DNA from: an uncultured Lachnospiraceae bacterium
GTDB lineage: Bacteria; Bacillota; Clostridia; Lachnospirales; Lachnospiraceae
Assembly: GCA_946544235.1 (NCBI GenBank)
Contig: CAMNMC010000060.1
Location: 1-38,547, forward strand
Length of the DNA stretch: 38,547 nt
Reading direction: 5' to 3'
A model generated the notes under the pieces. That model ran no database searches, was not told where the DNA came from, and saw only the letters and a list, made by a program, of their open reading frames with translations. This document shows positions 11,191-14,801 of this stretch, piece after piece. The translations under genes were made by a program, and so were the position numbers. Position 1 is the stretch's first letter. The number at the start of each line of letters is the position of its first letter.

Positions 11191-11613
11191 TTAAATAACC
11201 CACGATGAAAGATACTGGCCGACTAAGTCGGTCAGTTTTTTTGAATGGAAGAAGTTGTGGATAATTGTATCGTATTCGGCCCACATAGGAAGAGTTTTGC
11301 AGATGTCCTTCCTGTCACATTCGTAATTCCTGTTTGCCAGGCATGCAACAGGTGAAAGTGACCCCTCCATTACCTCCAAAATATCACCGATGGTATATTC
11401 ATCGGCAGGACGGCTCAGCTTGTAGCCGCCGCCCTTGCCGCTGGCACCGATAACAAGCTCGGCAGTAACCATATCCTTCATTATTATCTCAAGATATTTT
11501 TTTGATATGCCCTGTCTTTCGGCGATATCTTTTAATGGAATATATCCACCGTGTTCATTTTCTGCAAGATCTATCATAACGCGGATCGCGTATCTTCCTT
11601 TTGTTGAGATCAT
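11191..11613 (-). CDS. Rrf2 family regulator with three-cysteine motif
   Basis: This is a 140-residue Rrf2 regulator. The winged HTH spans residues 1-70 (STKGRYAIRVMIDLAENEHG, then IAERQGISKKYLEIIMKDM and the wing GKGGGYKLSRP). Cysteines at 91, 99 and 105 match the position of the IscR iron-sulfur ligands (IscR uses 92, 98 and 104) with slightly different spacing, so a cluster-sensing role is plausible. GGAGGGG precedes ATG at 11613; longer upstream frames lack a site. It is divergent from metY-cysK. In Firmicutes the Rrf2 protein CymR represses cysteine genes, so this is a good candidate repressor of that operon. Confidence 0.88.
   Translation of the reverse strand: MISTKGRYAIRVMIDLAENEHGGYIPLKDIAERQGISKKYLEIIMKDMVTAELVIGASGKGGGYKLSRPADEYTIGDILEVMEGSLSPVACLANRNYECDRKDICKTLPMWAEYDTIIHNFFHSKKLTDLVGQYLSSWVI
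11214..11242 (+). terminator. Terminator of the GGDEF gene inside the rrf2 coding end
   Basis: ACTGGCCGACT and AGTCGGTCAGT form an 11-pair stem with one G-U pair and a single-base loop, followed by seven T. It lies within the last codons of the converging Rrf2 gene. Confidence 0.8.
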
Positions 11614-11815: not shown

Positions 11816-11865
11816 GGAGAATGGACAGATGAAAAAAACAATAAAAAAATTTCTCCAAAAACCTA

Positions 11866-11894
11866 TTGACACAGTGGGTAAATGGTGATATTAT
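11866..11894 (+). promoter_or_regulatory. metY-cysK promoter with overlapping operator
   Basis: TTGACA (11866-11871), a 17-base spacer and TATTAT (11889-11894) make a near-consensus sigma-A promoter. GGGTAAAT lies in the spacer, an ideal place for a repressor. Transcription should start near 11901, giving a leader of about 330 bases. Confidence 0.8.
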
Positions 11895-11924
11895 TGCAAC
11901 ATCAAATCAAGGAGGTGCAAAAAT

Positions 11925-12050
11925 ATGAAGAATACATATACTTGGAATTCTGATATGGTCATGTGTTGTCGAATGCAGTTCTCCCGGACATGTAATATGG
12001 CAGGGGCGTTTGACGATAGTTTGATGCGCCTCATTACGGATCGATGTTGA
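11925..12050 (+). CDS. Met/Cys-rich leader peptide
   Basis: AAGGAGGTG (11909-11917) lies seven bases before an ATG opening a 41-codon frame that ends in TGA at 12048-12050. The peptide has four Cys (codons 14, 15, 23 and 41) and six Met, concentrated in MVMCCRM at residues 11-17. The Cys-Cys pair lies twelve bases before the 5' arm of the antiterminator stem, a position typical of leader-peptide attenuators. It sits between the promoter and metY-cysK, the genes that make homocysteine and cysteine. I infer that ribosome stalling at Cys (or Met) codons sets terminator formation. No leader peptide family is recognised by sequence. Confidence 0.75.
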   Translation: MKNTYTWNSDMVMCCRMQFSRTCNMAGAFDDSLMRLITDRC

Positions 12051-12086
12051 TCGTGAAGATAGAATACTATGCCATTTGTCCGGGAG
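11981..12086 (+). promoter_or_regulatory. Antiterminator stem of the sulfur leader
   Basis: CTCCCGGACA (11981-11990) pairs perfectly with TGTCCGGGAG (12077-12086), and ATGGCA (11997-12002) pairs with TGCCAT (12070-12075). Inside the loop GGGGCG (12003-12008) pairs with CGCCTC (12027-12032). The 3' arm overlaps the 5' arm of the terminator, so the two structures exclude each other. Confidence 0.7.
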
Positions 12087-12110
12087 CCCAGTAAGAGCTT
12101 CCGTTTTTTT
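12081..12110 (+). terminator. Attenuator terminator before metY
   Basis: CGGGAGC (12081-12087) and GCTTCCG (12097-12103) form a seven-pair stem with one G-U pair, followed by seven T (12104-12110). It lies 123 bases upstream of the metY start and can only form when 12081-12086 is not held by the antiterminator. Confidence 0.75.
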
Positions 12111-12233
12111 ATGCTTAGCGGGAAGACAATAACAAAAACCTGGCAAGACCTGAAACCAAAAAACAAAATGAATAATATGGACAAATAAAATAAGAAAGGA
12201 ATCCCTACAGGGGAATAAATAAAGGTGAATAAT

Positions 12234-13514
12234 ATGAGCGATTTAAGATTTGAAACATTACAGTTACACGTTGGACAGGAGCAGGCAGACCCTGCAACAG
12301 ATTCGAGAGCAGTTCCTATTTATCAGACAACCTCTTACGTTTTTCATAACAGCAAGCATGCAGCAGACCGTTTCGGACTTGCAGATGCAGGAAATATCTA
12401 CGGAAGACTTACAAACTCTACTCAGGACGTACTTGAGAAGAGAATCGCAGCTCTTGAGGGCGGCAGTGCAGCACTTGCACTTGCTTCCGGAGCAGCAGCA
12501 ATTACATATACTATAGAAGCTCTTGCAGCAAACGGTGGACATATCGTAGCTCAGAAGACTATATACGGAGGCAGCTACAACCTTCTGGCACATACACTTC
12601 CACAGTACGGAATTGAGACAACCTTCGTTGATGCTCACAATCTTGCAGAGGTTGAGGACGCAATCAAGGAAAATACAAGAGCCATCTATCTTGAGACACT
12701 CGGTAACCCTAACAGCGATATTCCTGATATTGATGCAATCGCTGAGATCGCACATAAGCATGGACTTCCGCTTGTTATAGACAATACATTTGGTACACCA
12801 TACCTTATCAGACCTATTGAGCATGGTGCAGACATCGTTGTTCATTCAGCAACCAAGTTCATCGGCGGTCACGGAACAACTCTCGGCGGAATCATCGTAG
12901 AAGCAGGCAAGTTTGACTGGAGTGCCAGCGGAAAATATCCTAACATCGCTGCTCCAAACCCAAGCTACCACGGCGTATCATTCTATGACGTTGTAGGACC
13001 TGCTGCATTTGTTACATACATTCGCGCAATACTTCTTCGTGATACAGGTGCAACAATTTCGCCATTTAACGCATTCCTTCTTCTGCAGGGTGTTGAAACA
13101 CTTTCCCTCAGACTTGAAAGACATGCAGAAAACACTAAGAAAGTCGTTGAATTCTTAAGCAATCATCCACAGGTTGAGAAGGTTAATCATCCTTCGCTTC
13201 CTGATCATCCGGATCATGCACTCTATCAGAAGTATTTCCCTAACGGCGGAGCTTCAATCTTCACCTTTGATATCAAGGGCGGTAAGGAAGAGGCATGGAA
13301 ATTCATCGACGGCCTTAAGATCTTCTCCCTCCTTGCAAACGTAGCCGATGTTAAGAGTCTGGTTATCCATCCGGCTTCAACAACCCATTCTCAGCTTTCC
13401 GACGCAGAGCTTGCTGATCAGGGTATCAACCAGAATACTATCCGTCTCTCAATCGGAACAGAGCATATCGATGATATCATCGCCGATCTTGAGGCAGGTT
13501 TCGCAGCTATCTAA
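12234..13514 (+). CDS. metY: O-acetylhomoserine sulfhydrylase
   Basis: This is a cytoplasmic PLP enzyme of the Cys/Met metabolism family that converts O-acetylhomoserine plus sulfide to homocysteine. The chain is about 426 residues, the usual MetY length and longer than MetB/MetC. Typical stretches are ETLQLHVGQEQADPATDSRAVPIYQTTS at the start, YGRLTNSTQDVLEKRIAALEGG, and the PLP lysine in SATKFIGGHG (Lys208). The C-terminus has IHPASTTHSQL. I chose ATG 12234, five bases after AAAGGTGA; a GTG at 12225 overlaps that site. It is the first gene after the attenuator and is followed by cysK, so both are probably co-regulated by sulfur supply. Confidence 0.93.
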   Translation: MSDLRFETLQLHVGQEQADPATDSRAVPIYQTTSYVFHNSKHAADRFGLADAGNIYGRLTNSTQDVLEKRIAALEGGSAALALASGAAAITYTIEALAANGGHIVAQKTIYGGSYNLLAHTLPQYGIETTFVDAHNLAEVEDAIKENTRAIYLETLGNPNSDIPDIDAIAEIAHKHGLPLVIDNTFGTPYLIRPIEHGADIVVHSATKFIGGHGTTLGGIIVEAGKFDWSASGKYPNIAAPNPSYHGVSFYDVVGPAAFVTYIRAILLRDTGATISPFNAFLLLQGVETLSLRLERHAENTKKVVEFLSNHPQVEKVNHPSLPDHPDHALYQKYFPNGGASIFTFDIKGGKEEAWKFIDGLKIFSLLANVADVKSLVIHPASTTHSQLSDAELADQGINQNTIRLSIGTEHIDDIIADLEAGFAAI

Positions 13515-13680: not shown

Positions 13681-14613
13681 ATGTCAAATATTTACAAAGG
13701 AACACTTGGACTTATAGGAAATACACCTCTCGTTGAGGTAGTAAATATAGAGAAGGAGCTCGGACTCGAGGCAACAGTACTTGTTAAGCTTGAGTATTTC
13801 AACCCGGCAGGAAGCGTTAAGGACCGTATTGCAAAGGCTATGATCGAGGACGCTGAGGCTAAGGGACTCCTTAAGGAAGGCTCAGTAATCATAGAGCCAA
13901 CATCAGGAAATACAGGTATCGGACTTGCAGCTATCGCAGCATCAAAGGGCTATCGCATAATCCTTACGATGCCTGAGACCATGAGCGTTGAGAGAAGAAA
14001 TATCCTCAAGGCTTACGGCGCAGAGCTTGTTCTTACAGAGGGTGCAAAGGGTATGAAGGGAGCTATCGAGAGAGCTGAGGAGCTTTCTAAGGAGATTCCT
14101 AACAGCTTCATCCCTGGACAGTTCGTTAACCCGGCCAATCCTGCAGTTCACAAGGCTACAACCGGTCCTGAAATCTGGAAGGATACAGATGGTAAGGTTG
14201 ATATCTTCATCGCAGGTGTAGGTACAGGCGGAACAGTTACAGGAACAGGCGAGTATCTTAAGGAGCAGAATCCTGAGGTTAAGGTTGTTGCTCTTGAGCC
14301 GGAGGATTCACCAGTTCTTTCAGAAGGCAGAGCAGGTGCTCACAAGATTCAGGGAATCGGCGCAGGCTTCGTTCCTGATGTACTGAATACAAATGTATTT
14401 GACGAAGTATTCAAGGCTTCTAACCAGGATGCCTTTGATACAGCCAAGCTTCTTGCCAAGAAGGAAGGCATCTCAGTTGGTATCTCTTCAGGCGCAGCTC
14501 TCTTCGGAGCTATCACTCTCGCCAAGAGACCTGAGAATAAGGGCAAGACCATCGTTGCACTTCTTCCTGACAGTGGCGACAGATATTATTCGACTGCGCT
14601 CTTTACAGAGTAG
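13681..14613 (+). CDS. cysK: Cysteine synthase
   Basis: This is O-acetylserine sulfhydrylase, which makes cysteine from O-acetylserine and sulfide with PLP. It is 310 residues, the normal CysK length. The N-terminal [12 protein letters not shown] lysine Lys47 in NPAGSVKDR, the substrate loop [10 protein letters not shown] and the phosphate-binding [12 protein letters not shown] are all intact, as is the C-terminal [16 protein letters not shown] precedes the ATG. It lies 166 bases after metY with no clear terminator between, so it is likely in the same transcript, and ends at a strong terminator. Confidence 0.95.
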
Positions 14614-14627
14614 ACTCATATAATTAT

Positions 14628-14718
14628 AAAGCATGGGCATATATTTCTCGGCGTGCTAAGATTTGTATGATTTTAAGCAAATCCCGCAATACTTCGAAAT
14701 ATATGTCCATGCTTTTTT
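14628..14718 (+). terminator. Long-stem terminator after cysK
   Basis: AAAGCATGGGCATATATTTC (14628-14647) pairs with 14696-14715 over 20 positions with one G-U pair, followed by a T tract. The 48-base loop holds its own GATTTG/CAAATC hairpin. Confidence 0.85.
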
Positions 14719-14801
14719 ATACCGATATGCTATGAACAAACGTCAATTATAAATATATTTGTCATAAAACTTAATTTTTTATAGCATATGACATAAATAA
14801 C

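Follow-up and report, generated by a model that had tools for sequence, protein, structure and literature searches.

In the trp and his leader attenuators of Escherichia coli, control codons lie just upstream of an antiterminator arm that overlaps the terminator. Leader-peptide attenuation is likewise known inside the Firmicutes, where His leader peptides precede hisZ and hisS* in bacilli (PMC2965389), and for cysteine the nearest described cases found are a uORF motif in Rhodobacterales and the polycysteine leaders of mycobacteria. The Rhodobacterales motif, uORFC-8-2, lies before cysS and combines a short uORF, whose tandem Cys codons usually occupy positions 14 and 15, with two stems, a terminal U-run and a proposed ribosome-mediated attenuation (PMC8632094). 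The mycobacterial elements are leaderless sORFs that respond to cysteine (Canestrari et al. 2020, as cited in PMC13236596). In one account, cysteine control otherwise relies on T-boxes in clostridia, and on CymR or CysR in the remaining Firmicutes; a cysteine T-box in Clostridium perfringens mediates premature termination of cysK and cystine transport transcripts when cysteine is sensed (PMC2940859).

Here we analyse a leader upstream of metY and cysK in a 38,547-nucleotide stretch of DNA (the window) from an uncultured Lachnospiraceae bacterium. This leader has the same layout of control codon, antiterminator and terminator as E. coli trp and his, but differs from them in having no clearly supported 1:2 pause hairpin, in an invariant CGA after the control codon, and in a terminator that follows the Cys codons by about 140 nt. 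The bacilli leaders differ in amino acid, genes and host group (PMC2965389). The published text on uORFC-8-2 sets that motif apart as alphaproteobacterial and as occurring only before cysS; moreover, its first stem contains the Cys codons, whereas the clostridial antiterminator begins 11 nt after them (PMC8632094). Mycobacterial and Actinobacterial systems also place a Cys-rich leader peptide before cysteine genes, but the published accounts put the Cys runs of Actinobacterial cys leaders near the stop codon with no conserved terminator hairpin, and report translation attenuation for M. smegmatis, in contrast to the intrinsic terminator and conserved antiterminator of the clostridial leader (PMC13236596, PMC1262725). 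T-boxes, as described, bind tRNA directly and carry a specifier codon and a T-box sequence (PMC2940859). We found no description of this leader element in the literature searched, in which subscription papers were largely absent, and this is not proof of absence.

The first-pass annotation of this DNA had placed a Cys- and Met-rich frame of 41 codons between a consensus promoter and metY, with its Cys-Cys codons upstream of a ten-pair antiterminator whose 3' arm overlaps a terminator. Each of these elements lies where it had been placed (Table 1), and the motif MVMCCRM forms residues 11-17 of the peptide. The promoter boxes (TTGACA at 11866-11871, TATTAT at 11889-11894, 17-nt spacer) match the consensus at 11 of 12 positions; over 601 bases, however, a promoter scan gives three promoter-like sites where shuffles give 1.9, and the site by itself is weak proof. 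A simple terminator scan with a loop limit of 8 called no terminator at 12081-12110, where the predicted energy is about -10.5 kcal/mol, probably because the loop is longer than that limit. The segment 11975-12115 folds better than most shuffles (z = -2.42; 2 of 200 equally good), and over its full length the leader folds unremarkably (z = -1.31; 9 of 100 shuffles). Antiterminator and terminator are predicted to be mutually exclusive.

Table 1. Features of the leader and its neighbourhood, numbered from the first letter of the window.
Feature	Position	Strand	Remarks
Divergent Rrf2-family regulator gene (CymR/IscR-like)	11191-11613	-	start at an internal ATG, by analogy
Probable Rrf2-type operator	11861-11879	+	overlaps the -35 box; consensus ACCTATTGACATAGTAGGT
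Sigma-70 type promoter, TTGACA-17-TATTAT	11866-11894	+	from promoter scan
Shine-Dalgarno AGGAGG of leader ORF	11910-11915	+	
Leader peptide ORF	11925-12050	+	41 codons, 4 Cys, 6 Met
Tandem Cys codons TGT TGT (putative sensor)	11964-11969	+	start of segment A
CGA ATG invariant element	11970-11975	+	ends 5 nt before the antiterminator
Antiterminator 5' arm (B)	11981-11990	+	10 perfect pairs with D
AUGGC, 5' strand of inner antiterminator stem	11997-12001	+	pairs with 12071-12075
GGGGCG, 5' strand of inner hairpin P2	12003-12008	+	pairs with 12027-12032
Segment C, candidate protector hairpin	12006-12018	+	complementary to the Cys-Cys-Arg-Met codons
CGCCUC, 3' strand of inner hairpin P2	12027-12032	+	
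GCCAU, 3' strand of inner antiterminator stem	12071-12075	+	
Antiterminator 3' arm (D)	12077-12086	+	overlaps the terminator 5' arm
Intrinsic terminator (predicted)	12081-12110	+	stem 12081-12087/12097-12103, then T7 at 12104-12110
metY, O-acetylhomoserine aminocarboxypropyltransferase	12234-13514	+	ATG start; GTG at 12225 also possible
cysK, cysteine synthase	13681-14613	+	TIGR01139, 453 bits against a cut-off of 351

As had been proposed from the letters of the DNA, the downstream genes encode MetY (TIGR01326, 635 bits against a cut-off of 495) and, after a gap of 166 bases, CysK, which also scores above its cut-off. A long inverted repeat, AAAGCATGGGCATATATTTC ... GAAATATATGTCCATGCTTTTTT, follows cysK at window positions 14630-14720 and is likely to be the operon terminator. 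Searches of the window at the Rfam gathering score returned no family, and the covariance models for the T-box (RF00230) and the SAM riboswitch (RF00162) gave no match there; two below-threshold Rfam matches are both meaningless. The window's genome holds four T-box matches, three of them before ung-, pheS- and trpE-like genes (named by eye), and one SAM riboswitch match before a metK-like gene. Leader peptides matched 0 families in NCBIfam/Pfam (six peptides, then four), and no plasmid relatives were found.

We consider it highly probable, arguing from sequence, that the element is a ribosome-mediated transcription attenuator which senses cysteinyl-tRNA and is ON in cysteine-starved cells, with an Rrf2-type repressor as a probable second layer. 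A ribosome would translate the leader behind RNA polymerase and, when Cys-tRNA is scarce, would stall with a Cys codon in its A site and its front edge just before arm B. B could then pair with D, thereby blocking the terminator and allowing metY and probably cysK to be transcribed. With plentiful Cys-tRNA the ribosome would advance and cover B while the polymerase makes D, which would pair with the terminator arm instead and stop transcription. Once the ribosome has passed, B may be kept closed in part by a protector hairpin that pairs the Cys codons with segment C, and the Rrf2-type repressor probably controls initiation. Counting against an attenuator are the prediction, in a review, that Firmicutes run RNA polymerase ahead of ribosomes (PMC10953045), one metY leader without tandem Cys codons (L006), and the absence of the element from 8 of the best 20 same-genus loci discussed below.

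The window leader belongs to a large, apparently undescribed family. Our collection of 106 distinct leaders, drawn mainly from Lachnospiraceae along with further Clostridia, was made with a regular expression that required Cys-Cys-Arg-Met and a Shine-Dalgarno sequence; the CCNRM, MWCRM and MYCRM types fall outside the 106. A degenerate 46-base pattern, in which parts of the leader core were fixed, matches 74 stretches in a 257-Gb collection (genomes of 84,980 species), against a chance expectation, by our own arithmetic, of far less than 1. These stretches come from Lachnospiraceae, Butyrivibrio, Blautia, Hungatella hathewayi DSM 13479, [Clostridium] citroniae, Eubacterium, Ruminococcus, Saccharofermentans, Christensenella and further Clostridia, among others. 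A chance origin of the leader is rejected by these 74 stretches together with the conservation of the stems, and it is conservation that provides the decisive sequence evidence that the element is real.

Similarity searches, in which the genome tallies at genus, family, order, class and phylum level and for the nucleotide pattern count the window's own genome, give a graded picture. At the DNA level 56 of 61 same-genus genomes match, mostly at the metY start or the promoter box, and some matches are to the leader core, at several places per genome. With the peptide as query, 74 of 299 family genomes match at E <= 1, whereas E < 0.01 is reached at only 10 places, one of them in the window. A profile of 20 peptides recovers 39 of 61 genus genomes (E <= 0.1), 33 of 295 order and 19 of 291 class genomes (E <= 0.05), and 9 of 299 phylum genomes (E <= 0.01). 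Many of the weaker profile and peptide matches are probably noise. When 13 such loci were re-read, CGAATG-N5-B with a D arm was present in nine (L154, L156, L157, L158, L160, L164, L184, L187 and L237) and was not found at L192, L238, L239 and L240. L237, which is followed by a MetY-like gene, comes from outside the class. Among the best 20 loci of the same-genus DNA search, 12 carry CGAATG-N5-B, with identical spacing in 12 of 12, and eight are without the element (L005, L008, L009, L016, L018, L013, L014 and L017). The first five of these eight have no leader but do have a CCTATTGAC box about 110-160 nt before metY, and the closeness of the box to leaderless metY genes makes the leader look like an optional second layer. 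Two metY leaders are apparently decaying: L003, with arms just 38 nt apart, start to start, and L006, which has lost its tandem Cys codons; neither has a T6 run in the stretch from the arms to metY. In L185 and L231 the leader ORF is cut short by an in-frame stop, placed immediately behind the core or at AFD, yet both RNA arms are kept.

Conservation of the reading frame was assessed with a nucleotide pattern, GTCGAATG-N5-CTCCCGGRCA with one mismatch allowed, which makes no reference to an ORF, although the leaders on which it was modelled had been found as ORFs. It matches 32 of 397 family genomes, and the reversed control pattern has one match among the matches listed. Of 37 places matched, 30 came with a locus and were read, and 26 of these 30 have an ORF with a Shine-Dalgarno sequence in the Cys frame (one of them, L211, being a chance match inside a longer gene), against 1 and 0 in the other frames. 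Three of the four loci with an unrecognised Shine-Dalgarno sequence (L222, L230 and L231) nevertheless have an open frame. Beyond the searched motif, Cys triplets at 64 pattern loci number 105 of 825 in frame 0, compared with 45 and 37 of 762 in the other frames. The element in the window thus appears as a short ORF that looks translated, with its ribosome-binding site, ahead of the operon. Within the peptide the core CCRMxxSRAxxMAG is strongly conserved and the N-terminal part varies freely; Met stands at codon -1 before the Cys pair in 89 of 104 leaders and at codon -2 in 40 of 104.

The codon that follows Cys is CGA in 106 of 106 leaders, both in the 42 (42/42) found by protein or DNA similarity and in the 64 (64/64) found with a pattern that allows all six Arg codons. 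CGA accounts for 44 of the 1146 Arg codons of the downstream genes and, among the other leader Arg codons that do not precede Cys, for 23 of 228. Where an Arg codon stands before Cys later in the ORF, it is CGA in 53 of 58 cases, and 48 of the 52 occurrences of CGATGT are in the Cys frame. At L002, L011 and L015 the Cys codons have moved, while CGAATG stays in frame and its spacing to arm B is unchanged, which implies that both the nucleotides and the frame are kept. Pairing with segment C, considered as the cause of the fixed CGA, explains some leaders and fails for those without a matching C.

For the RNA stems we used an alignment (A2) of 75 of 90 non-redundant leaders; 15 decayed, divergent, oddly long or near-duplicate ones were omitted (L003, L027, L036, L058, L059, L081, L090, L097, L099, L101, L110, L139, L148, L185 and L199), and the pairing figures are therefore favoured somewhat. 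In A2, 99.6% of the cells of the 10-bp antiterminator are paired, and 16 carry changes on both sides; the corresponding values are 94.4% and 6 for the inner stem AUGGC/GCCAU, and 81.1% and 11 for P2 (GGGGCG/CGCCUC). Taken together, the three helices are 93.1% paired, compared with 33-49% when slid, and their covariation score is 0.150, compared with 0.114 for shuffled and 0.053-0.078 for slid versions. The 33 two-sided cells exceed the 7.3 in shuffles, but slid versions range from 12 to 36, so that this count by itself is not decisive. Alignment-based folding returns just the 10-bp antiterminator, with a small covariation term (-0.57). A terminator-like hairpin that reuses the 3' arm occurs in 75 of 75 rows, with 4 or more T within 8 bases after it in 69 of 75, in a permissive search that had no shuffle control and in which five pairs sufficed in 8 of 75 rows. 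The first-pass annotation had named homologues that lack the peptide or its Cys codons, or stems without covariation, as grounds for giving up its proposal. Peptide and Cys codons are both kept, with L006 as the one exception, and the antiterminator has compensated changes; leader-peptide attenuation, as that annotation had it, gains support from all three.

A ribosome covers about 11 nt beyond its A-site codon, as judged from toeprint geometry, and 11 nt is the distance from the last Cys codon to arm B in the window. We folded 81 of 90 leaders with such a footprint and examined the energy needed to open arm B in 85 of 90, rows without a recognised arm or T-run being dropped. With the A site on the first Cys codon the antiterminator is the optimum in 66 of 81 leaders, and on the second in 69; the count is 56 for CGA and 15 for the following ATG. 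For each of the next ten codons it is the optimum in 0 of 81, and the terminator forms in 74 to 81. Three codons past the second Cys codon the counts are 0 for the antiterminator and 80 for the terminator. The antiterminator is also the optimum in 62 of 81 leaders without a ribosome, in 54 to 65 with the ribosome upstream of the Cys codons, and in 31 to 66 with it further downstream (31 to 43 near the stop codon, offsets 26 to 28). The value of 69 consequently stands out only modestly, and it is the codons immediately following Cys that give the clear contrast; the switch lies in masking, and the OFF state would need either a ribosome over arm B as the polymerase arrives at the terminator, or the protector hairpin. 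In the window itself, folding gives the antiterminator when the A site holds a Cys codon and the terminator once the ribosome sits over arm B, so that a Cys-stalled ribosome is predicted to free this arm and ribosomes downstream to cover it.

Across the 85 leaders, opening arm B costs 3.76 kcal/mol with the ribosome on the Cys codons and 6.65 kcal/mol with it on the stop codon, and the arm opens more easily in the former position in 73 of 85. This effect, 2.89, falls to 2.35 when the region of segment A is shuffled (P = 0.02) and to 0.77 when the downstream region is shuffled. The small loss on shuffling segment A led us to downgrade the protector hairpin. Pairing of Cys-Cys-Arg-Met with the downstream segment averages -13.0 kcal/mol against -10.6 in shuffles, and 33 of 90 leaders are equalled by at most 2 of 40 shuffles (median 0.14); the hairpin has no covariation, segment A hardly varying, and was not recovered by alignment-based folding. 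A protector hairpin that includes the Cys codons is thus weakly supported by these models.

The direction of the response, which had earlier been left unsettled, now leans towards cysteine starvation as the ON signal: that the antiterminator is the optimum in 69 of 81 leaders with Cys in the A site and in none three codons later favours this sign, as does the opening energy of arm B, and we regard it as likely on the modelling. The opposite sign, in which completion of the peptide would leave arm B unoccupied and so turn the gene on, draws on the 31 to 43 leaders with an antiterminator optimum near the stop codon and on the 62 without a ribosome. We find it scarcely credible, given that the antiterminator is commoner, and arm B easier to open, with the ribosome on the Cys codons, and that induction of biosynthesis genes by plentiful cysteine would make little sense. 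Which amino acid is sensed can be argued further. Codons for Met before the Cys pair at the frequencies given above, targets that include metY (57 of 98) and 11 MetQ-like binding proteins, and an antiterminator optimum in 60 of 81 leaders with the ribosome at codon -1 would all suit a switch that senses methionine, alone or with cysteine. Such sensing is nevertheless improbable in our estimation, because the Met codons vary more than the Cys codon that precedes CGA and because a ribosome at the Met codon after CGA lies over arm B, with the antiterminator optimal in just 15 of 81. Of the joint Met/Cys signal first suggested, cysteine therefore stands as the main one; the Met codon is frequent, and a Met response is unproven.

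The remaining alternatives dispense with hungry Cys codons. Arrest by the nascent peptide, the core CCRMxxSRAxxMAG stalling the ribosome on a metabolite, would account for the strong amino-acid conservation of that core, but its SRA codons are explained by the nucleotides of arm B (TCC in 97 of 104, CGG in 100 of 104), the N-terminal part of the peptide is free to vary, and the core shifts or changes with both arms kept (CCNRM, CMCMRM, CCCCRDSRM, MWCRM and MYCRM), all of which make arrest very unlikely. Little probability attaches, too, to ligand binding by a riboswitch or other structured RNA in which the invariant CGAAUG serves for the binding and the ORF is incidental. At loci chosen by their nucleotides only, an ORF, its Shine-Dalgarno sequence and its frame are conserved; Cys codons are enriched in that frame, and no Rfam family matches the window; this reading does agree with CGA in 104 of 104 leaders, found by searches that allowed six Arg codons, and with the fixed spacing of CGAATG to arm B in 12 of 12.

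The genes downstream of 98 leaders fall into clusters of 65, 18, 8 and 2, with five singles, so that 93 of 98 belong to four clusters, of Cys/Met enzymes, binding proteins, amino-acid permeases and CysK. The largest contains 57 MetY proteins (at least 60% identical to the window's) and 8 relatives at 33-43%, which are enzymes of Cys/Met metabolism. The 18 binding proteins comprise 11 that are MetQ-like and 7 of polar amino-acid or cystine type, with representatives below the NCBIfam cut-offs; the representative of the 8 amino-acid ABC permeases passes TIGR01726 (ABC permease domain), and the two CysK proteins are 76 and 92% identical to the window's. Singles include a LysR regulator and a dicarboxylate/amino-acid symporter, both below cut-off, and a thioredoxin-like protein (named by eye). 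In the window the control codons appear to match the amino acid that the operon makes or imports. One predicted protein downstream of a leader (L072) apparently fuses amino-acid-type and MetQ-type binding domains. A further single, behind leader L032, is a glycyl radical enzyme resembling (2S)-3-sulfopropanediol dehydratase (716 bits for a partial protein, cut-off 1000), and a cysteine leader in this position links the switch to organosulfonate use.

The divergent regulator upstream scores 113.8 bits with TIGR00738, above the cut-off of 73.3, and 97 and 83.4 bits with the IscR and CymR models, both below their own cut-offs. A box CCTATTGACA, with at most one mismatch and within 150 nt upstream, accompanies 73 of 90 leaders but only 69 of 1800 random windows, and 72 of 90 leaders have the palindrome of the box with at most four mismatches. 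The palindrome fits a dimeric repressor, for which we take the neighbouring Rrf2 protein as the candidate. The Rrf2-type gene and operator-like box suggest that initiation is controlled as well, and that CymR-type control has probably not been replaced.

The invariant CGA codon is a concrete and testable oddity. Our guess is that it is a slow codon which serves as a timer: once Cys has been decoded, the ribosome would dwell on the antiterminator arm and so give the terminator time to form. That the family as a whole is a widespread clostridial cysteine attenuator, its geometry locked to the leading edge of the ribosome and CGA its timer, is an idea we hold only tentatively and with more doubt than belief. 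If true, it would mean that Clostridia couple transcription and translation closely enough to regulate genes, and would run counter to the prediction that uncoupling may extend to Firmicutes in general. Coupling has been doubted for this phylum in a review (PMC10953045), and because the switch needs a ribosome close behind RNA polymerase, it offers a natural test of coupling in Clostridia. The switch recurs before metY and transporters in Lachnospiraceae and their relatives, and a leader-peptide cysteine switch with an intrinsic terminator would add a layer of control to the sulfur metabolism of gut bacteria.
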